This document shows, in pieces, positions 13,759-45,125 of a DNA stretch of 64,000 nucleotides (its first letter is position 1; each line of letters begins with the position of its first letter). Made by a program: the position numbers and the translations under genes. Origin of the DNA: Candidatus Jettenia sp. AMX2 (GTDB taxonomy: Bacteria; Planctomycetota; Brocadiia; Brocadiales; Brocadiaceae); the NCBI GenBank assembly GCA_030583665.1, contig CP129469.1, positions 310,001 through 374,000 on the forward strand. Reading direction: 5' to 3'. Under the pieces are notes generated by a model. That model searched no databases. It worked only from the letters and a program-made list of their open reading frames with translations, and was not told the DNA's origin.

Positions 13759-14524
13759 GAGGATATGATGGACTGGAATTTTTGAATCTGTCGCTAAGAT
13801 GTATTCTTTATGAGAGATACGTATGAGGATGCAGTACCGGAAAATATAAAGATGCGATGAGGCTTCATACAGAAAAAATTGAAAGCGGTGATAAATAGTA
13901 CGGTTGCTTTCTTGAAATGCCGTAAATGATTAATTTATTTGAAATTTTAAATAGAAAAGCATTATTCTGTGTGATATAATTGCAAGGCGTAATATATCCC
14001 TGCAAATTTAAAGAGGTCTCAAATGGTTTATTTAACGGGAAATTATTAATACCAGAATACCATAAAAGGTTTGCCTGCAATAGTATGAATATATCACCGG
14101 GAATTTTTAACTACCGAACATCTTTCATATCTTGAAGTAACAAGAAGTTATTACAATCAAAGAAAATTTTGCGGATCAATCATGCAAAAGCGTATTACGA
14201 ATATGATAAAGGTATGAAAAGAAATATATTCTTTTCTTTATCATGGCTCAAGAACGGGTTTTGATTCCCATTAAGAAAATATGAATCAACCCCACGTGCA
14301 TTGTTCCCCTTGCAGAGAAACAAAAGTTAGCTTTTTCATATATTCTTAAACTTGCCCACTACCTTTACAAACTGAGTCTTGAAATAAACAAGCACCTTTA
14401 CAGGAATGGTTGTCATACCATTATACGTGAGATAAATTTTCCGGAGACCTTATTGAGTAAAGGAGGTAATACTGAAATAAAACCGCAGTAAAATTGCTGC
14501 TTTTACAAAAGAAATACAAATTTG
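13759..14524. other. Long AT-rich gap upstream of the c-di-GMP riboswitch
   Basis: No frame here looks coding. There is a hairpin at 14205-14242 (GATAAA and GAAAAGAA pairing with TTCTTTTC and TTTATC) without a T-tract. The right end is the presumed promoter and leader region for the riboswitch-controlled GGDEF-EAL gene. The remainder may be decayed sequence. Confidence 0.4.
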
Positions 14525-14596
14525 AAAAAGGCAAACTATCCGCGAGGGTAGGACGCAAAGCCATGGGCCTTTACGAAAGGCCGCCAGGCTGCCTTA
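14525..14596 (+). promoter_or_regulatory. Cyclic di-GMP-I riboswitch (GEMM)
   Basis: The leader carries the conserved GEMM blocks in order: AAAGGCAAACT, a first hairpin CTATCC/GGGTAG closed by a GCGA tetraloop, then GGACGCAAAGCC, a second stem GGGCCTTT/AAAGGCC, and the closing GCCAGGCTGCC. This is the class I c-di-GMP aptamer. It lies 38 nt upstream of the ATG at 14635 and just before the ribosome binding site GAGGAGG (14617-14623). A short stem (TCACA/TGTGA) lies next to that site, so translation control is plausible. The regulated gene itself encodes a GGDEF-EAL protein, implying feedback. Confidence 0.93.
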
Positions 14597-14634
14597 TTTG
14601 TTTCACATTCTTTTGTGAGGAGGAAAAGTACACG

Positions 14635-17178
14635 ATGAAACGTGCACGTGCTTGTTTTGTATTTATTTTATCTTTCTTAAAAGAAAAAACCCCATATAAA
14701 ATTTCCACAAGAGGCATGACCTCGCGATTCCTGTTTGCTTTGGGGATTGTGGCATGTCTGGGTATTGTGGCCTGCCTGATAATAGTAAACAAGCCAATAA
14801 AACAACAGGGGTGTGGTGGAGCTGTTTTCAAAGCAAGCGAAGTACTTTGGCTTTTGCCATATCAGAAAGCAGCTTCTTCCCATCGTTTTGCGTATAACCC
14901 AGAAGAAAATGAACAGGAAAAAAGCCGTAGCAAATCACGATATTCTGCCTGTGGTATAGAAGACTATCCGGAAGGCCTGATACAGTGTAATCACCTGCCT
15001 GTTGCGATGGATACAAATCAGTACCAAAAAGAGAAAGGGGACAGCAGCCTCCAATTGCAAAGATTTTTAAAAGGGGGGCTGGGTTTTACCTTATTGGCAA
15101 TATTTGTTATGGTTTTACGTGATGCAACTATCCAGAAGAAAACCGGTAAATTGTTCCAGAGACATCCTGTTTCTGTCTCTGCCATCTTTGACACCGTTAG
15201 TGTGCTGATAGTGGTGCTTGACACGGCAGGAAACATCGTCTATTTTAACCGAACCGGTGAGCGTGTAACAGGTTATTCATTGACGGAAGTAAAAGGGAAA
15301 TGTTTCTGGGAATTGTTTCTTGTTCCGGAAGAAATTGATACATTTAAGGCGGTTTTTGAAAATCTCCAAAAGGAGCAACTCCAGGGAGAAAAGGTATCCA
15401 CGTGGTTGACAAAGAACGGCGATCGCAGGCTGATAGAATGGTCAAATACCACCCTCTTCAAAAATGCATCGGTTGAGTATATCATTATAACGGGTACCGA
15501 TATTACCGTGAGAAGGAAGGAAGAGGAAAGACTTCTAAGACTATCCCATGCGTTGGAGCAGAGTCCCAGTTCAATTGTCATAACCGATACCAGGGGCCAT
15601 ATTGAATACGTCAATGCTAAATTTACTCGGCTAACGGGATACAGCCCGGAAGAAGTTATTGGAAAAAATCCCCGGATTCTTAAATCAGGTGATACCTTGC
15701 CTGAAGAATATACCCGGTTATGGGAGATGATTACCTCCGGAAAGGAATGGCGGGGGGAGTTTCATAATATTAAAAAAAATGGCGAATCATATTGGGAATC
15801 GGTATCTATTTCCCCGGTAAGAAACGAAGAGGGGGTAATAACCCATTTTATAGCGATTAAGGAAGATATTACAGAACACAAGAAGTTTGAATCCCAGCTT
15901 GAGTTTCTGGCCTCCCACGATCCGCTTACGAATCTGTTTAACCGGAGACGTTTCCTGGAGGAACTTGAAGGATGGTTTGCATATGCGGAGCGGTACAACA
16001 GCAGCGGGGCACTGTTGTTTTTAGATATAGACCATTTTAAGCCCATCAATGATATGCTGGGTCACAATGAAGGTGACAGGTTGATTGTTGCTTTTGCGGA
16101 ACTCGTTCAGAAACGAATCAGGGAGAGTGATGTCCTGGCAAGGATGGGGGGTGATGAATTTGCTCTTCTCCTGCCGAATATCAACGTTGAGGGAGCCTTG
16201 TCCGTTGCAGAGCAGATCAGAAAATCCGTGCAGCAGGATATTGCGGCATTCGATAAGCAATTTAAGGGTATTACAATCAGTATTGGCATGGCATTGTTTC
16301 CTCATCACGGGAAGACAGCAAAAGCACTTTTAACGGGTGCGGATCTTGCCATGTACCATGCAAAGGAGACCGGCAGAAACAGGGTCTGTGTGTATGAGCC
16401 TGATTATAGGGCAAAGGCAGAGCTGCGGTTAAGCTGGGAAGAGCGTATCCGTACGGCCCTGAAGCGGGACCGGCTGGCATTGTACTTTCAGCCCGTTCTT
16501 GATCTGAAAAACAACTCCCTTGCCGGATGCGAGGCGTTACTGAGGATGAAAGGCGGGGATGGCGAAATAATCTTACCGAGGGATTTCCTGAAGATTGCAG
16601 AGCAGTCGAGATTGATCCACGACATCGACCGGTGGGTAATCTGCAGGGCGATCCAGGTAATTGCCTGGCAGGGATTTGCTGAGAAAAACTGGAAACTTGA
16701 AGTCAATCTTTCCGGCAAGGTGTTTCACGATACGGAAATACTGTCGTTCATAAAACAGGAATTAAACCATTATGCCATTGCTCACGGGACATTACTCTTT
16801 GAAATTTCAGAGATGGCCATCATTCCAAATCTGGCAAAAGCGCAGCATTATATTGACACCCTGAAGGCTTTAGGCTGCCTTTTTGCTCTTGACAATTTTG
16901 GCAGCGGTTTTTCATTGTTTTATTATCTGAAGCAATTACCGGTTGATTACATTAAGATAAATGGTGGTATGATTTATAATCTTCCGAATGACCCTGGGGA
17001 TCAGCATATCGTTAAAGCGATAGTTGATATGGCGCATGGGCTGGGGAAAAAGGTGATTGCAGGGTTTGTAAATGACGAGGAGACAATGCAGATGTTGAAG
17101 AATTATGGTGTTGATTATGTGCAGGGATATTATATCGGTATGCCCGCTGAAACAATGGAATACCGGACCGTACGATAA
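14635..17178 (+). CDS. Membrane PAS-PAS-GGDEF-EAL protein, degenerate EAL
   Basis: Starting at the ATG after GAGGAGG, the protein has 847 residues. A membrane segment lies near residues 32-52 (LFALGIVACLGIVACLIIV), an extracytoplasmic loop of about 100 residues follows, and a second segment lies near 150-165. Two PAS domains come next, then GGDEF and EAL. The GGDEF motif is intact (RMGGDEFALL), with an RxxD inhibitory site (RESD) five residues before it. The EAL motif is present (CEALLRM), but DDFG is DNFG and the catalytic AEGVE is AGFVN, so phosphodiesterase activity is doubtful. It probably makes c-di-GMP and may bind it through the EAL domain. A c-di-GMP riboswitch precedes it. A longer frame from 14494 would run through the riboswitch and is rejected. 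Confidence 0.93.
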   Translation: MKRARACFVFILSFLKEKTPYKISTRGMTSRFLFALGIVACLGIVACLIIVNKPIKQQGCGGAVFKASEVLWLLPYQKAASSHRFAYNPEENEQEKSRSKSRYSACGIEDYPEGLIQCNHLPVAMDTNQYQKEKGDSSLQLQRFLKGGLGFTLLAIFVMVLRDATIQKKTGKLFQRHPVSVSAIFDTVSVLIVVLDTAGNIVYFNRTGERVTGYSLTEVKGKCFWELFLVPEEIDTFKAVFENLQKEQLQGEKVSTWLTKNGDRRLIEWSNTTLFKNASVEYIIITGTDITVRRKEEERLLRLSHALEQSPSSIVITDTRGHIEYVNAKFTRLTGYSPEEVIGKNPRILKSGDTLPEEYTRLWEMITSGKEWRGEFHNIKKNGESYWESVSISPVRNEEGVITHFIAIKEDITEHKKFESQLEFLASHDPLTNLFNRRRFLEELEGWFAYAERYNSSGALLFLDIDHFKPINDMLGHNEGDRLIVAFAELVQKRIRESDVLARMGGDEFALLLPNINVEGALSVAEQIRKSVQQDIAAFDKQFKGITISIGMALFPHHGKTAKALLTGADLAMYHAKETGRNRVCVYEPDYRAKAELRLSWEERIRTALKRDRLALYFQPVLDLKNNSLAGCEALLRMKGGDGEIILPRDFLKIAEQSRLIHDIDRWVICRAIQVIAWQGFAEKNWKLEVNLSGKVFHDTEILSFIKQELNHYAIAHGTLLFEISEMAIIPNLAKAQHYIDTLKALGCLFALDNFGSGFSLFYYLKQLPVDYIKINGGMIYNLPNDPGDQHIVKAIVDMAHGLGKKVIAGFVNDEETMQMLKNYGVDYVQGYYIGMPAETMEYRTVR

Positions 17179-21762: not shown

Positions 21763-23571
21763 CCTGAATCTTGCACCAAATAGACCGCTCCCGTGTGAGC
21801 GGTAAGATTTATCAAATCACCGTATAAACCACTAGCCGACCGCTCATACCGAGAAGTTTTATCAGTGTATTTTAAGTTCTTTTTTTCTCGCAGATGCCAC
21901 TTCTTGTTCGTGATCAACACCTCATGCAAGAAATTTCTTGCATCAACGTCACGGAGAAAAAGCAGCTTGCTTTATCCCCAGAATTCTGATGTGCCTCGAA
22001 GGCCATCTTCTGCTGTCAAGCCAAGGTCTTACCTGCTGTAGACGTTCATCAAGATATCTCATAAATCGAAAAAGGCCTGCAACCCTACTATCATGCCGGG
22101 AATATTTCACCTCATTGGTATTCGAATGATCTGTAATCTTGGCCGCTATGAACAACAGCTTTAAACGGGCAATCCGTATGGTATTGTCGATCACCTCCCT
22201 TGCAGCACATCTTGATTTCGCTTTATTTTCTTCTTCCTGTCTCGCCTGCTCCAACTGACTATGTCCGGCAAGCATCTTAAATGACCGCCAGATATTGTAG
22301 GAAAGCATTACGATCTGAAAATACGCATAGTTACTCGCAAATTTGTTCGATACTATGGCTGCTAGTCCCTCTCGCTTGGCTTCTCCTATCAGGTTCTCAC
22401 TATCAGCCCTTTTGTCATACTCTTCTATCACTTTATGGGCCTTTTCCTTTTTGTTCGTGACAAATATCCGGTAGCTATACTTCTCATCTTCCAAAAGCTT
22501 CAGTTGAACAGCCTTTCGTACCTCGTCTTCCCGTATGCGCATGGCAACAAAACGACACCCCTGTTTCCACCCCATCGGCTGATAGATACACTCATTGTAT
22601 TCAACCCTGTCGCTCTCTCGTACCTTGTACCACTTTGGTGGATCAAAGGGTGGATTGCATCCCTTGTTGCCAAAGATAAACAGATATCCTTCTTCAATTG
22701 CTGCCTCCACACTCTCCCAACCGATGAACTCCCCGTCACCACGAAGGATTACCTTCTTTACGCAACCAGGAAGATATTTCTTGAAACTCCGAATAACCTC
22801 TCCTACCTCCTCACTCCCCATCGTCTCTCCACTGCGCAACTTGCCAGCAAAATATTCTCGCGTCTCCTCGATAAAACACAGCACGGGACGAAACCCCTTC
22901 TTCCCCCGATTCCTCGTATTATGACCTTTGCGACCTCCCTGCTGATTCCCATAGATGGTCTCTACCGTTGTGTCTATATCGATGTGGATCGTCTCGTACC
23001 CTATCTCGCATAAATGCCATACCCGCTCTCTCAACGCACTCATTACCATCAACAGAGACCTCCCTTGATTTATCCCCAGAGAATTCACATATCGCCAGTA
23101 TGTCGTAACAAACGGAAGTTTTGACACATGAAATATCGAACACAATATCGAGTCTGTCTGGATATACAAAAAATGCCATACCCGGTTGAACCCAATAAAC
23201 AAAAGCATTATAAAACCATACACCATATTATGGTGACCCATATCCGGTGTTCGGGACGGTGGTGTATACAACCCCTCAAATATCTCTCTGAATCGTATCA
23301 ACCCCATAAATTTTACCAGCCCCAAAAGCCCTCCAAATGGACTCAAACGCTCACTGCAATAACTATATGCTGTTGAAGACCCTATTTTACTAGCCTTTGC
23401 TGGACAACCAGCTTCTTCTTGATTTTCCTGCCTCTTGGTGGTATTCTTATTTTGCTTTTTAACCATTTGGGTTACCTCCTCTTATTATTAGGTTAATCTC
23501 ACTTACCCTATTATAACGAGGTAATCCTTATGGTTCACCCTCTTTTATCTTCCACTTGTGCAAGATTCAGG
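21763..23571 (-). mobile_element. Intact IS1380-family insertion sequence
   Basis: The element is 1,809 bp. Its ends are perfect 14-bp inverted repeats, CCTGAATCTTGCAC at 21763-21776 and its inverse at 23558-23571. It is flanked by a 5-bp direct repeat TATTA (21758-21762 and 23572-23576), the footprint of transposition; IS1380 elements are known for CC-starting ends and 4-5 bp duplications. It carries one complete transposase gene. A 20-bp perfect palindrome (21924-21943) lies just after the transposase stop and may end its message. The element sits between two divergent genes. Confidence 0.93.
21949..23466 (-). CDS. IS1380-family DDE transposase
   Basis: The complete 505-residue transposase has an RNase-H-like DDE catalytic domain. 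The acidic residues are visible in HIDIDTTVETIYG, ILRGDGEFIG and RADSENLIGEAKREGL, the last being the Y/RADxEN..E-type motif of this family. The N-terminus shows no frameshift. A ribosome binding site (GAGGAGGT) precedes the ATG. With intact ends and a target duplication around it, the gene may still be active. Confidence 0.93.
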   Translation of the reverse strand: MVKKQNKNTTKRQENQEEAGCPAKASKIGSSTAYSYCSERLSPFGGLLGLVKFMGLIRFREIFEGLYTPPSRTPDMGHHNMVYGFIMLLFIGFNRVWHFLYIQTDSILCSIFHVSKLPFVTTYWRYVNSLGINQGRSLLMVMSALRERVWHLCEIGYETIHIDIDTTVETIYGNQQGGRKGHNTRNRGKKGFRPVLCFIEETREYFAGKLRSGETMGSEEVGEVIRSFKKYLPGCVKKVILRGDGEFIGWESVEAAIEEGYLFIFGNKGCNPPFDPPKWYKVRESDRVEYNECIYQPMGWKQGCRFVAMRIREDEVRKAVQLKLLEDEKYSYRIFVTNKKEKAHKVIEEYDKRADSENLIGEAKREGLAAIVSNKFASNYAYFQIVMLSYNIWRSFKMLAGHSQLEQARQEEENKAKSRCAAREVIDNTIRIARLKLLFIAAKITDHSNTNEVKYSRHDSRVAGLFRFMRYLDERLQQVRPWLDSRRWPSRHIRILGIKQAAFSP

Positions 23572-39986: not shown

Positions 39987-40523
39987 ATGCCGCTACTTGG
40001 TGAAATAAATAAAGTATGTGAGTATGTAAAAAAGTTGCCTAGGTCACCACAACCTGCAATTCCACAAAGGGAGGTTTGGCTCTCATTATGGGGGGCGTTT
40101 ATAGGTGTGGGATTTACAGCATTGCTTGCTTATCTATGGAAATGTCCGATGTTATTAGGGCCGTTTGGGGCAAGCGCAGTATTGATTTATGGCGCATACA
40201 AGGCGCCACTTGCACAGCCAAGGAACGTTCTTCTGGGACATTTTCTAGCGGCATGTATAGGTATTGTTGTGTATGATTTCTTCGGTACTTCCTTTTGGTC
40301 TATTGGTCTCGGTGTTGCGCTTGCCCTTGTGCTCATGACGGTAACGTATTCCATCCATCCACCGGCCGGTGCCACCGCATATGTGGCGATTCAGACCGGT
40401 GGCTTGGGTTCCGGGTATATGTATATCCTAAACCCGGTTGTTTTGGGGGCCTTTATTTTGGTTCTAGTCGGTGTTATTTTCAATAAACTTGGAAAGAGAG
40501 ATTATCCTGCACACTGGTGGTAA
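39987..40523 (+). CDS. HPP-family membrane protein (putative nitrite transporter)
   Basis: The 178-residue protein has four to five hydrophobic helices and the family-defining motif SIHPPAGATA. Other conserved parts are LLGPFGASAVLIYG and AQPRNVLLGHFLAA. Plant chloroplast and cyanobacterial HPP proteins have been reported to carry nitrite, so nitrite or another small anion is a reasonable guess. The chosen ATG has GGGAGAGAGG upstream. A sensor-like protein follows after 68 bp and an FNT-family anion channel ends the same cluster, which supports a role in nitrite handling. Function here is inferred. Confidence 0.82.
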   Translation: MPLLGEINKVCEYVKKLPRSPQPAIPQREVWLSLWGAFIGVGFTALLAYLWKCPMLLGPFGASAVLIYGAYKAPLAQPRNVLLGHFLAACIGIVVYDFFGTSFWSIGLGVALALVLMTVTYSIHPPAGATAYVAIQTGGLGSGYMYILNPVVLGAFILVLVGVIFNKLGKRDYPAHWW

Positions 40524-40591
40524 GCTTCTTAATATAAAGGCGTAATATACCTTAAACCTCAGGGGTAAAATTTTATTCACGGAGAAAACTA

Positions 40592-42880
40592 ATGTATATT
40601 TCGATTAAAAATCGACTCATTTTCCTATTAATTGCATTTACCCTCTTGCCGTTTGTCTTGCTCAGGGTTATTGCTTATCCCCGTGTGCAATCTGATCTGC
40701 GGGAAGTCATTATCCGAAACCTTGATGGTATAGGACATAAGCAGGCAGAATTGGTATCTAATTGGGTCCATGAAAGAATGATGAATGTTCGTGCCATTGC
40801 CATGAATCCTTTTATGGCAAAAGGTGCAGCCGTTACAAGTGAAGACAAGGATTATACCGATATCGTTCAATTTCTTGAAGTAGTAAAGAATGAGTTTGGG
40901 TATAAGGGGATCCTGGTTAGTAACGAAAAAGGTATAATAACAGTTGCTACGGAAGGGGAAAGGACGGGTAATGATATTTCGGGAACAGATTATTTTGAGG
41001 AAGCACTCAAAGGAAAAACTTATGTATCAGGTATTATTCCCTCTGAAATCCCGCTCATCAACGAATATGGGGAAAAGGAACTAGGACTGCCAACGATGTT
41101 CGTCTCGTCTCCGTTACGGGACAGTGAGGGTTATATAACAGGTATTGTTGCGTTAAGGATTGATGCAACGAGACTGAACGATTTGATGCTGAGCCTGAAT
41201 TTGGGCAGAACTGGGGAGACCTATCTGGTAAGTAAAGAAGGTTACATGCTAACTGAGTCCAGATTTGCAGGTCATCTGAGGGAAATGGGTTTAATAAAAA
41301 AGAGGTGTGCCCTGGAGTTGAAGCTGGTGAATCAGGAAACGGGGAAATTAACGACTGGTGTTCTGCAATGCATTTCCGGTGTCAATGGTTTTGATGCGGA
41401 AGGATATAAAGATTATAGCGGGGTGACTGTTCTGGGCGTATGGAGATGGTTGCCTGAGTTCAATTGGGGGATCATAACAGAGATTGATAAGGATGAAGGC
41501 TATGGGGCGGTTTATAATCTTAATTACATAGTGACTGCTGTGCTACTTATACTTGCATTTCCTTTTGTGCTTGTGGCGTATCTTGTCGGCAAAAAACTTT
41601 CAACGCCTATTCTCGAACTCACAGAAGTAACAAGGAAGATGTCGTCGGGAGATCTATCACAGCGGGTAACTATTCAAAGAGAAGACGAGATTGGAGAACT
41701 GGCGAATTCCTTCAATGCTATGGCAAGGTCCCTTGATGAGAAAACGAAGGAGATCATAACATCTGAGAAAAGATACCGGGAGATATTTAATTCAATCAAG
41801 GAGGGTGTTTACCAGTCAGAACCTGGAGTGGATGGAGTATTTACCTTCATTAACCAGGCAGGGGCAGAGATCCTGGGCTATGATTCGCCGGAAGAGGTGA
41901 TAGGGATGAAGGTGAAGAATATGTATGTAGATACGGAAGACCGGAGCAGGCTCTGTGAAAAACTGGAAAAAGAGGGTGTTTGGAAGGAATTTGTATCTCT
42001 GTGTAAGAGGAAAAACGGAGAGAGCTTCTATGCAGAGCGTACGAGTAGTATTCTCAAGGATGAGCAGGGAAAAACCATTGCAATCTATGGGGTATTCAGA
42101 GATATTTCGGAAAGGAAAAAGGCTGAGGCAGAGATTATAGAATCAGAGAGACGATATCGGCTACTCTTTGATTCACTCAGGGAAGGGGTTTATCAATCAG
42201 AGCCAACGGTAGATGGGGTATTTCTGTGGGTGAATCAGGCCGGGGCAGAAATCCTTGGATATTCGTCGCCCGGTGAAGTGATCGGAACACCGGTAAAGGA
42301 TATGTATGTTAACCCGGAAGACCGTAAAGCAGTGGTGGAGAAGCTCCTGAGGGATGGGGTATGGAAGGAGTTCTCCTCGCTTTGTAAGAGGAAAAACGGA
42401 GAACAATTTTATATGGAACGCACATCAAGCCTTTCAAGGGATGACAGAGGCAACCCTGTGCGGATCGATGGAATATTCAGGGACATTACGGCGCGAAAGA
42501 AATTAGAAATGGAGTTAAAAGAATCGGAAAGGCATCACAGGGAATTACTGAATACATTAAAGGAGGGCATATATCAGTGTGAGCCTACAGAAGACGGGGT
42601 ATTTACTTGGATTAATCGGGCAGGAGCGGAGATACTTGGCTACAGCTCACCTTCAGAAGTAATTGGAACACGGGTAAAGGATATATATGTAAATCCTGAT
42701 GACCGCAGAGAATTGCTCGAAAAACTGGAGAAGGAGGGAGTGTGGAAAGATTTTACCTCGTATTGTAAAAGGAAAAACGGGGAACGGTTTATTTCTGAAA
42801 GAACCTGTAATCTTGTACGTGATGAAAATGGTAAGCCGGTACGAATTGAGGGCATATTCAGAGATATAACAGAAGAGTAA
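40592..42880 (+). CDS. dCache-HAMP-PASx3 membrane sensor without output domain
   Basis: The 762-residue protein starts with a membrane helix (residues 8-28) and an extracytoplasmic double-Cache domain (about 35-305; signature RTGETYLVSKEGYMLTESR). A second helix (about 312-332) and a HAMP domain (LSTPILELTEVTRKMSSGDL onwards) follow. Three nearly identical PAS domains of about 124 residues fill 391-762. The protein ends right after the third PAS (GIFRDITEE), so there is no histidine kinase, GGDEF, EAL or methyl-accepting domain. It must signal through a partner. It lies between the HPP and FNT transporter genes, so nitrite or a related anion is a candidate ligand. Start has a GGAG site. Confidence 0.88.
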   Translation: MYISIKNRLIFLLIAFTLLPFVLLRVIAYPRVQSDLREVIIRNLDGIGHKQAELVSNWVHERMMNVRAIAMNPFMAKGAAVTSEDKDYTDIVQFLEVVKNEFGYKGILVSNEKGIITVATEGERTGNDISGTDYFEEALKGKTYVSGIIPSEIPLINEYGEKELGLPTMFVSSPLRDSEGYITGIVALRIDATRLNDLMLSLNLGRTGETYLVSKEGYMLTESRFAGHLREMGLIKKRCALELKLVNQETGKLTTGVLQCISGVNGFDAEGYKDYSGVTVLGVWRWLPEFNWGIITEIDKDEGYGAVYNLNYIVTAVLLILAFPFVLVAYLVGKKLSTPILELTEVTRKMSSGDLSQRVTIQREDEIGELANSFNAMARSLDEKTKEIITSEKRYREIFNSIKEGVYQSEPGVDGVFTFINQAGAEILGYDSPEEVIGMKVKNMYVDTEDRSRLCEKLEKEGVWKEFVSLCKRKNGESFYAERTSSILKDEQGKTIAIYGVFRDISERKKAEAEIIESERRYRLLFDSLREGVYQSEPTVDGVFLWVNQAGAEILGYSSPGEVIGTPVKDMYVNPEDRKAVVEKLLRDGVWKEFSSLCKRKNGEQFYMERTSSLSRDDRGNPVRIDGIFRDITARKKLEMELKESERHHRELLNTLKEGIYQCEPTEDGVFTWINRAGAEILGYSSPSEVIGTRVKDIYVNPDDRRELLEKLEKEGVWKDFTSYCKRKNGERFISERTCNLVRDENGKPVRIEGIFRDITEE
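41762..42877 (+). repeat. Threefold internal repeat encoding PAS domains
   Basis: Three in-tandem units of about 372 bp begin near 41762, 42134 and 42506. Each encodes the same landmarks: EGVYQ or EGIYQ, QAGAEILGY or RAGAEILGY, EVIG, GVWK, CKRKNGE and FRDI. The similarity suggests recent duplication within the sensor gene. Such long direct repeats could recombine and change the PAS number. Confidence 0.85.
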
Positions 42881-42926
42881 AGGTTTTATTTAACAATAAA
42901 GTACCTTGAACCGGGAGTAGAAAAAT

Positions 42927-43460
42927 ATGGCAAATGAAACCATGAAGGGGTTATCAGTTAACGCAAAGACCCTTATTGTGATATTGCTTTTTGTGAATGT
43001 TGGTTTTGCATCGAAGATGCTTAATAAATACTACAAAATGAAAGAAACAGGTTATACGAGGGAGCAGACATTCCATGAACAACTCGAACAAAGAGTGATG
43101 AAGGCCTTTGGTTCGATGGAAGAATTGAATAAGGTGGTGAGTGATATTACAAGGCAGAAGGAAGATGCGGAAAAGCTTGCTGAATCTTTCAGAGAGCAGG
43201 GGAATCAATTAAGACTTGCTAACAGGAAACTGGAAGATGCAAAGGCTACATTGGAGGAGGAGAAGGCCCGTCTGCAAAAAGAGATATGGGAAAGGGAAGA
43301 TTCTTTGTCACTTGCAAAAAAAACTTTAAGTATTAAGGATGCTACAATCCAGGAATTAACAGCGAAATTGGAAGAATTCGAAAAAGAGAATGCTGCACTT
43401 AAGAAATTGCTTGAAGAACAAACGGGGTTGCAGAAGGAATGGGAGATCCCAGGGCAATAA
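42927..43460 (+). CDS. Membrane-anchored coiled-coil protein
   Basis: The 177-residue protein has one N-terminal membrane segment (residues 14-31, KTLIVILLFVNVGFAS) and then an almost continuous heptad-rich coiled coil from about residue 55 to 170, full of Glu, Lys and Leu (LEDAKATLEEEKARLQKEI and onward). No enzymatic domain is visible and I cannot name a family. It lies 46 bp after the PAS sensor and 43 bp before a pseudo-receiver, all on the same strand. It may couple the sensor to the partner proteins or act as a scaffold for the channel. Confidence 0.75.
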   Translation: MANETMKGLSVNAKTLIVILLFVNVGFASKMLNKYYKMKETGYTREQTFHEQLEQRVMKAFGSMEELNKVVSDITRQKEDAEKLAESFREQGNQLRLANRKLEDAKATLEEEKARLQKEIWEREDSLSLAKKTLSIKDATIQELTAKLEEFEKENAALKKLLEEQTGLQKEWEIPGQ

Positions 43461-43503
43461 GCAGGATACTATTTATTTCATAAATAGAGTATGAAAGATT
43501 TTT

Positions 43504-43935
43504 ATGCCAAGGGTCTTAATTATAGAAGAGCAGGAGAAATTACGAAGATTACTGGTGAATATCTTCAAGCAGGAGGGATTTGGTATATGTGAAGGAATTA
43601 TAGGGAAGAGGGCAAACGAGCTGCTTGAAAAAAATCCATATGATCTCATTATTGTCGGTCTTTCCGGAAAGCCTGCTGAAGGTTGTGAGATCGTGAGGTC
43701 GATAAAGGTTTCCGGCAGTTTGGCAGAAGTTGTTGTGATAGTCCCAAAAAGCGGTTACGACATGGATCAGGTGGTTCGTTGCGGTATCTATGATTATCTT
43801 ATAAAGCCCTTTCTCCAAAAAGACTTAATTGAAATAGGGAAAAAGGCACTTGAAAAAAAACAACTGGCTGACAAGGTAAGAAGTTTGGAACAGATGATGG
43901 ATATGGACAGAGGTAATTTGAAAAGGAAGATGTAA
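43504..43935 (+). CDS. Pseudo-receiver (response-regulator-like) protein
   Basis: The 143-residue single domain has the CheY-like fold (start VLIIEEQEKLRRLLVNIF, end YDYLIKPFLQKDLIEIG). The phospho-acceptor aspartate is missing: the position reads DLIIVGLSGKP instead of the usual DLIxxDxxMP. The conserved Thr/Ser after the fourth strand also appears replaced (VVIVPKSG), while the lysine in LIKPF remains. There is no output domain; a short C-terminal helix follows. It is probably a phosphorylation-independent adaptor working with the sensor and coiled-coil protein. Confidence 0.8.
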   Translation: MPRVLIIEEQEKLRRLLVNIFKQEGFGICEGIIGKRANELLEKNPYDLIIVGLSGKPAEGCEIVRSIKVSGSLAEVVVIVPKSGYDMDQVVRCGIYDYLIKPFLQKDLIEIGKKALEKKQLADKVRSLEQMMDMDRGNLKRKM

Positions 43936-44098
43936 AAAAACATTATTCTGGCAAGGAAAGGGGGTGTATTAAAGAACGTGGCATAAGGATATAAGGGTAA
44001 GGAAAAAAAGAAGGATTGTATCGAAGGGGCGCAAGAAGGGTTGGATGAATATTTAGATTTTACAGAGTGAATATAACAATTTTTTAGGAGAACAGTTC

Positions 44099-45016
44099 AT
44101 GTTATATACCGCAAACGTTGATGCAATTGCAGCGGTGTCTCTCAAAAAGGCCACCGCATTGAAACATAGTTTGACAGGATTTTTGACGCTATCTGTATTA
44201 GCCGGTTTTTATGTCGGATTCGGTGTTATTCTTGCAATGATTTGTGCGGCTCCTGTTGCAGCACTCAATCCCGGTATTGGGAAAATAATTGCTGGTGCAA
44301 CCTTTGGTATAGCTTTGTCGCTGGTAATTGTTGCCGGATGCGAGCTGTTTACCGGATATAATTTGTTGATCATGAAAGGTGGGTTCAGAGGTACTGTAAC
44401 CATAGGTGATGCTATGTTAGGCTGGTTCTGGACCTATCTGGGGAATCTTGGGGGATCAATGATTTTTGGGCTTATGATTATAATGACAGGCATCTTTGCT
44501 GCTGATCCATGGCGGACCTTTCTCTTAAACGTTGCTACTTATAAATGTAATGCGCCATGGTGGGAATTATTCTTCAGGGGTATTTTTTGTAACTGGCTGG
44601 TGTGTTTAGCGATATGGAGTAGTTTTAGATGTGGAGGTAACAATTCTGCTACACTCATTATGATTTGGTGGTGTCTCTTTGCTTTCATTACAACCGGTAT
44701 GGAACACAGCATAGCAAATATGACAATATTAACCATTGCAAACCTGCTGCCTGGTGCTGCACCCGCGGTTACCTGGGGGAAGATGTTTGGTTGGAATCTC
44801 GTTCCTGTTACCTTGGGGAATATTGTAGGGGGGACATTTTTTGTGACGTTCCTCTACTGGTTTGCTACATATATGGATGAAAGGGGTGCAAGGAAGCTTG
44901 AGGCTTTAAGGGCAGCCGGTGTGACCGATGAAACCAGGGGTTACAGGGTTCCGAGCGGGGAGCTTAAACAGGAAGAGATTAAAGATGTTAGGGTGAAGAT
45001 GAAAGAGAAAGAGTAA
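44099..45016 (+). CDS. Formate/nitrite channel of the FNT family (FocA/NirC)
   Basis: FNT proteins are pentameric channels for formate, nitrite or hydrosulfide. The 305-residue protein has six hydrophobic helices and the signatures AGFYVGFGVIL, IIAGATFGIALSLVIVAGCELFTG, YLGNLGGSMIFG, FCNWLVCLAIW and GMEHSIANM, with the central histidine that gates or protonates the anion in FocA. A hydrophilic C-terminal tail of about 40 residues is longer than usual. It ends the cluster that begins with the HPP gene, after a 163-bp gap, and is followed by a strong terminator. Nitrite is the likely substrate in an anammox-type organism; this is inferred. Confidence 0.9.
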   Translation: MLYTANVDAIAAVSLKKATALKHSLTGFLTLSVLAGFYVGFGVILAMICAAPVAALNPGIGKIIAGATFGIALSLVIVAGCELFTGYNLLIMKGGFRGTVTIGDAMLGWFWTYLGNLGGSMIFGLMIIMTGIFAADPWRTFLLNVATYKCNAPWWELFFRGIFCNWLVCLAIWSSFRCGGNNSATLIMIWWCLFAFITTGMEHSIANMTILTIANLLPGAAPAVTWGKMFGWNLVPVTLGNIVGGTFFVTFLYWFATYMDERGARKLEALRAAGVTDETRGYRVPSGELKQEEIKDVRVKMKEKE

Positions 45017-45094: not shown

Positions 45095-45125
45095 GGGCCG
45101 GTTAAATTAAAACCGGCCTTTTTTG
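45095..45125 (+). terminator. Intrinsic terminator after the FNT gene
   Basis: GGCCGGTT (45096-45103) and AACCGGCC (45111-45118) form an 8-bp GC-rich stem with a 7-nt loop, followed by six T. It lies about 80 bp after the FNT stop and marks the end of the transporter/sensor cluster. Confidence 0.9.

Follow-up and report, generated by a model that had tools for sequence, protein, structure and literature searches.

Introduction

Proteins of the HPP family have been described as nitrite transporters in cyanobacteria and chloroplasts (Maeda et al. 2014, as cited in PMC7438415), and the FNT family includes NirC, FocA and the hydrosulphide channel. In Kuenenia stuttgartiensis, kuste3050-3055 were named the nitrite transporter gene cluster by Hu et al. 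2019; when nitrite was withheld, their transcripts went down 7.5-, 10-, 3-, 3-, 5- and 36-fold, respectively, and the proteins of kuste3052, 3054 and 3055 were all detected at similar label-free intensity (PMC6423088). A 2020 study of K. stuttgartiensis found focA_2 and HPP to be up under nitrite limitation and proposed both as nitrite transporters (PMC7438415). Two further components of this cluster, here described as a membrane sensor and a coiled-coil protein, were labelled hypothetical or unknown (PMC6423088), and sensing was discussed in neither report (PMC6423088, PMC7438415). Here we describe the orthologous cluster of Candidatus Jettenia sp. AMX2, found at positions 39987-45016 of a 64,000-nucleotide stretch (the window; G000:C1:310001-374000 of a 3.46-Mb single-contig genome), and consider how its sensor might control its transporters. 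The genome encodes hydrazine synthase alpha, which identifies the host as an anammox bacterium.

Results

Five open reading frames, all on the plus strand, encode an HPP protein, a sensor, a coiled-coil protein, a receiver and an FNT channel; their order and domains (Pfam) agree with a preliminary description of the locus. Window coordinates are given below.

39987..40523, plus strand: HPP-family membrane protein, 178 amino acids, putative nitrite transporter (PF04982 TM_HPP, 2.5e-47; orthologue of KSMBR1_1075, PMC7438415)
40592..42880, plus strand: output-less membrane sensor, 762 amino acids, transmembrane-dCache-transmembrane-HAMP-PAS-PAS-PAS (Pfam; AlphaFold2/Foldseek; Cache tree)
42927..43460, plus strand: coiled-coil protein with one transmembrane segment, 177 amino acids, found only in Brocadiaceae and Scalindua
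43504..43935, plus strand: stand-alone receiver, 143 amino acids, Asp to Gly (Pfam Response_reg, 5.3e-13)
43936..44098, plus strand: conserved leader 5' of FNT, 163 nucleotides (25 sequences compared)
43956..43973, plus strand: Shine-Dalgarno-like element GAAAGGGGGTGTATTAAA in the FNT leader (core conserved in 25/25 leaders)
44099..45016, plus strand: FNT channel, 305 amino acids, NirC/hydrosulphide-channel-like (PF01226 Form_Nir_trans, 4.5e-66)
45096..45124, no strand assigned: intrinsic terminator between convergent genes (sequence; minus face in the terminator scan)

We take the HPP start at 39987 as correct because it has a good ribosome-binding site, the TM_HPP match is confined to the last 152 residues of the longer HPP reading frame, and several relatives begin at 171-178 amino acids. 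The protein carries the HPP motif as SIHPPAG. The Form_Nir_trans match spans residues 11-255 of the FNT channel, whose nearest solved structures are 3TDO and NirC (4FC4) and which is closest in type to NirC and the hydrosulphide channel. Six reading frames of a Kuenenia locus (L105, in genome G010, by inference K. stuttgartiensis) match kuste3050-3055 one to one; by gene count, 3052 is the Cache-HAMP part of the sensor, 3053 the PAS part, 3054 the coiled-coil protein and 3055 FNT. This K. stuttgartiensis cluster (kuste3050-3055 / KSMBR1_1070-1075) is orthologous to that of the window, with HPP, Cache, PAS, coiled-coil and FNT genes in equal order and nitrite-responsive transcripts, but it has an interrupted HPP gene (by an in-frame TAG at L105), carries the Cache-HAMP and PAS parts of the sensor on two genes and lacks the receiver. 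Altogether, six FNT and two HPP genes are present in the Kuenenia genome. Since transcripts of the K. stuttgartiensis orthologue cluster fall 3- to 36-fold without nitrite, nitrite transport is well supported. In our reading, Brocadiaceae and Scalindua take up nitrite mainly by way of this cluster. Nitrite had been suggested earlier as the likely ligand; published expression of the orthologue speaks for it as the transported substrate, and its proposed role as ligand of the Cache domain is unsupported.

The neighbourhood of HPP, Cache-PAS sensor, coiled-coil and FNT genes (module A) is kept across Brocadiaceae and Scalindua. It was found at about 40 loci, and such recurrence in dozens of genomes places it far from chance. 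HPP and the coiled-coil protein each occur in 33/33 Brocadiaceae genomes, and the latter also in 12 of 14 Scalindua genomes; it was not found in the other Brocadiales families searched, some of which encode hydrazine synthase. Across 84,980 species' genomes (GTDB), all matches to the coiled-coil protein with a genus in their title came from Brocadia, Jettenia, Kuenenia, Loosdrechtia or Scalindua. The gene order is HPP-sensor-coiled coil-(receiver)-FNT in Brocadiaceae and FNT-HPP-sensor-coiled coil in Scalindua, the receiver being an optional part that is missing in Kuenenia, in one other genome (G008), in Scalindua and in second cluster copies. HPP itself also occurs outside Brocadiales; among eight loci read there, some of them short, none had HPP adjoining FNT.

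The 762-residue sensor combines dCache_1, HAMP and three PAS domains, and Pfam detected no HisKA, HATPase_c, GGDEF, MCP, cyclase or DNA-binding domain in it. That the protein stops after its PAS domains, as had been noticed before, is a conserved design. Its extracytoplasmic part has a double Cache fold (Pfam; AlphaFold2/Foldseek) instead of the four-helix bundle of nitrate/nitrite sensors of the NarX/NarQ type. Foldseek likened this fold to many amino-acid and C4 receptors, a result that is neutral on nitrite. The sensor is one of an expanded family of Cache proteins, in whose tree the module A sensors form their own branch (94% SH-aLRT). It is homologous to the histidine kinase described below through Cache and HAMP (44% identity), and we considered that it might be a simple truncation of that kinase; the two lie on separate branches, however, and its nearest relatives in its own genome are other output-less proteins. 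Where Kuenenia encodes the sensor as separate Cache-HAMP and PAS genes, the two genes share 4 bases at two of three loci read, L105 among them, which suggests that their products function jointly. A second output-less sensor (L175:6124-8793, minus strand; 889 amino acids, with an extra PAS domain) is 91% identical to the window sensor over its first 390 residues and is a recent copy located away from transporters of the HPP/FNT kind. At L177:5739-9744 (minus strand), a Cache histidine kinase-like protein of 686 amino acids is encoded after a NirJ/AhbD-like radical SAM gene of the haem biosynthesis type.

The coiled-coil protein consists of one transmembrane segment and a coiled coil to which Pfam assigns no family, is mostly 64-78% identical between Brocadiaceae genera, and runs on into a PAS domain in some Scalindua. 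Its transmembrane segment is homologous to that of a Cache/coiled-coil fusion (40% over 45 columns; hhalign probability 95.4) encoded in a second arrangement, module B, which is likewise conserved in Brocadiaceae and Scalindua. Module B comprises a receiver, the Cache/coiled-coil fusion, a PAS-only protein, a NarK-like MFS carrier and a SLAC1 channel, and its Cache/coiled-coil-PAS-MFS part adjoins module A genes in four genomes (G020, G026, G028 and G023). A candidate signalling domain in the long SLAC1 protein of Scalindua proved to be merely a tandem SLAC1. In a third form, found in five genomes, a SemiSWEET-like PQ-loop domain is fused to an output-less Cache-HAMP-PAS protein; three of these genomes (L267-L269) carry a separate 94-residue PQ-loop gene just 3' of the fusion. 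No output domain was found in the module A sensor, module B or the PQ-loop fusion forms.

L131, G000:C1:490000-498000, minus strand: module B in the host genome, with a fully intact receiver
L176:6370-8562, minus strand, and L267, L268, L269 and L272: PQ-loop/Cache-HAMP-PAS fusion

Of the 31 Brocadiaceae genomes that carry an intact Cache-HAMP-PAS-GAF-PAS-HisKA-HATPase kinase, 25 encode it no more than 10 kb upstream of HPP, with an NtrC-type sigma-54 regulator after it; the kinase core is 77-100% identical. In the host genome the pair lies at G000:C1:271-276 kb (L109), about 76 kb from HPP. The absence of a kinase and of an intact receiver, stressed in the preliminary description, is therefore true of the window only, and the strong co-occurrence of a kinase that was named there as grounds for abandoning its proposal is partly what we see. 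In Scalindua we found no close orthologue of the kinase, and modules A and B are kept there, which argues that the receptor can work without it.

The receiver of the window has Gly at the position of the phospho-acceptor Asp. Among 27 distinct orthologues, Asp is kept in 24, Lys in 26 and Thr in one, so the loss is recent and local; the missing aspartate thus describes the window receiver correctly, though not the receiver in general, and gives no basis for phosphorylation-independent signalling. Its best relative in its own genome is the receiver of NtrC (G000:C1:274686-276098; 38%). This similarity extends into the NtrC linker (KKALEKKxLxDKVRxLE), and together these matches suggest that the stand-alone receiver is probably a copy of the NtrC receiver plus linker. 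Upstream of HPP, we detected no conserved sigma-54 promoter. A recurrent TGAAAC..TTGCA match was rejected as such a promoter, for it seems to fall within the NtrC coding region.

The gaps in the cluster had been described as modest; the one preceding FNT is not empty, being the conserved leader listed above. Its Shine-Dalgarno-like element (also given as GAAAGGRGGTGT and GAAAGGRGGTGTRNTAAA) lies 124-157 nucleotides upstream of the FNT start in the 25 leaders, among which the sequence between element and start drifts. The element matches the 16S anti-Shine-Dalgarno end, which is present in the host, and no conserved start codon follows it in the 25 leaders; nor was a conserved RNA fold found in the FNT leader. 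The FNT leader holds its sole perfect match in the genome. A near match lies about 80 nucleotides before a ferredoxin gene (G000:C1:2533696). The element resembles STAB-SD, a 5' mRNA stabilizer of cry3A (PMC4113751), in being GAAAGGAGG-like, in its distance of about 130-150 nucleotides upstream and in having no translation start. It differs in that the host genome has no RNase J above cut-off (TIGR00649 scored below it), which counts against the STAB-SD mechanism. The leader element may contribute to the stronger response of FNT compared with the genes preceding it. Beyond FNT, the strong terminator noted previously is real: judged by eye, it reads GGCCGGTT-aaattaa-AACCGGCC-TTTTTT at 45096-45124, and the scan gave its minus-strand face only.

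Elsewhere in the window, a c-di-GMP-I riboswitch (Rfam RF03167; 14521-14597) falls just within the called start of the reading frame at 14494-17178, by eye a GGDEF/EAL protein whose true start is probably further down than called. A 505-residue reading frame at 21949-23466 (minus strand) resembles, on inspection by eye, an IS1380-type transposase.

Discussion

We propose that FNT, along with HPP, transports nitrite, and that the dCache-HAMP-PAS3 protein senses a small molecule on the outer side of the membrane, its PAS domains perhaps receiving a second signal inside. The sensor and the coiled-coil protein would form a membrane receptor without enzymatic or DNA-binding output that acts by contact on the adjoining transporter complex, a form of post-translational control. 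Expression of the cluster in Brocadiaceae might be adjusted by a separate arm, a transcriptional one consisting of the Cache-PAS kinase and NtrC, and the small receiver probably links both arms, either by docking to the kinase or by pairing with NtrC; the receiver of the window has lost the usual site of phosphorylation. We give this two-armed arrangement about an even chance. Within it, we infer the contact of sensor and coiled-coil protein with the transporters, the direction of control, regulation of the cluster by kinase and NtrC, the role of the receiver and the ligand.

Of the two arms, we favour direct coupling of sensor and transporter, on circumstantial grounds drawn from gene neighbourhood and fusion. 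Its main argument is that the sensor family recurs beside, or fused to, other transporters. It is conceivable, though less likely than not, that output-less Cache/PAS receptors form a class by which anammox bacteria regulate transport proteins directly, in three or more arrangements: acting on FNT and HPP in module A, on the NarK-like carrier and SLAC1 in module B, and within the single polypeptide of the PQ-loop fusion. Several observations weigh against direct coupling. The intact kinase and NtrC beside HPP in most Brocadiaceae would suffice for regulation without direct gating, and gene neighbourhood alone is equally compatible with a sensor whose role is purely transcriptional. In K. stuttgartiensis, sensor and coiled-coil transcripts shift 3-5-fold compared with 36-fold for FNT (PMC6423088), and several members of the sensor clade, such as the 889-residue one, lie away from transporters.

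The main alternative, which we regard as rather unlikely, is that the sensor and coiled-coil protein serve the histidine kinase as accessory subunits, in mixed dimers or signalling arrays, and the receiver a phosphate sink or dominant NtrC partner, with transcription as the only target. The proximity of kinase and NtrC to HPP in 25/31 Brocadiaceae, the 44% identity of sensor and kinase through Cache and HAMP, the apparent derivation of the receiver plus linker from NtrC and nitrite-responsive expression (PMC6423088) would all fit. Such a role is harder to reconcile with Scalindua and the second module copies, which have HPP, sensor, coiled-coil protein and FNT without kinase, NtrC or receiver, with the lack of a detected sigma-54 promoter upstream of HPP, and with the fusion of the sensor family to a transporter-like PQ-loop domain.

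The preliminary description envisaged a signalling complex acting on the channels that was wholly independent of phosphorylation, with the pseudo-receiver as a structural switch. Coupling of sensor and transporters survives from it as our leading idea. The phosphorylation-independent form, to which the lost Asp of the window receiver and the missing Thr of nearly all orthologues might point, is improbable given the retention of Asp (24/27) and Lys (26/27), the intact receiver of module B and the linked, intact kinase/NtrC pair. Finally, the sensor, coiled-coil protein and receiver could be passengers of operon history, irrelevant to transport. The variable receiver, missing in some genera, and the in-frame stop in HPP of the likely K. 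stuttgartiensis genome would suit this reading, which we nevertheless consider very improbable: the coiled-coil protein is well kept across Brocadiaceae genera, orthologues persist in Scalindua, and sensor and coiled-coil proteins were detected at FNT-like levels (PMC6423088).

Conserved receptors beside the main nitrite channel, a NarK-like carrier, SLAC1 and a PQ-loop protein provide concrete, testable parts. If control by contact is true, it would constitute a mode of signalling in bacteria that needs neither a kinase nor a second messenger nor binding to DNA.

Compared with described transporters, the FNT channel of the window shares its family with NirC, FocA and the hydrosulphide channel and is distinguished from known FNT channels by being encoded together with a Cache-PAS receptor. 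The HPP protein has PF04982 and the HPP motif in common with the cyanobacterial and chloroplast nitrite transporter, but is bacterial and has FNT and a sensor as operon neighbours. DctB and DctA are a transporter-coupled sensing pair. Ks-Amt5 is cited as an ammonium channel fused to a kinase (PMC7438415). In both systems a transport protein is paired with a sensor, as we propose for the cluster of the window, whereas the window sensor contains no kinase and its coupling to the transporters is the conjectural element.

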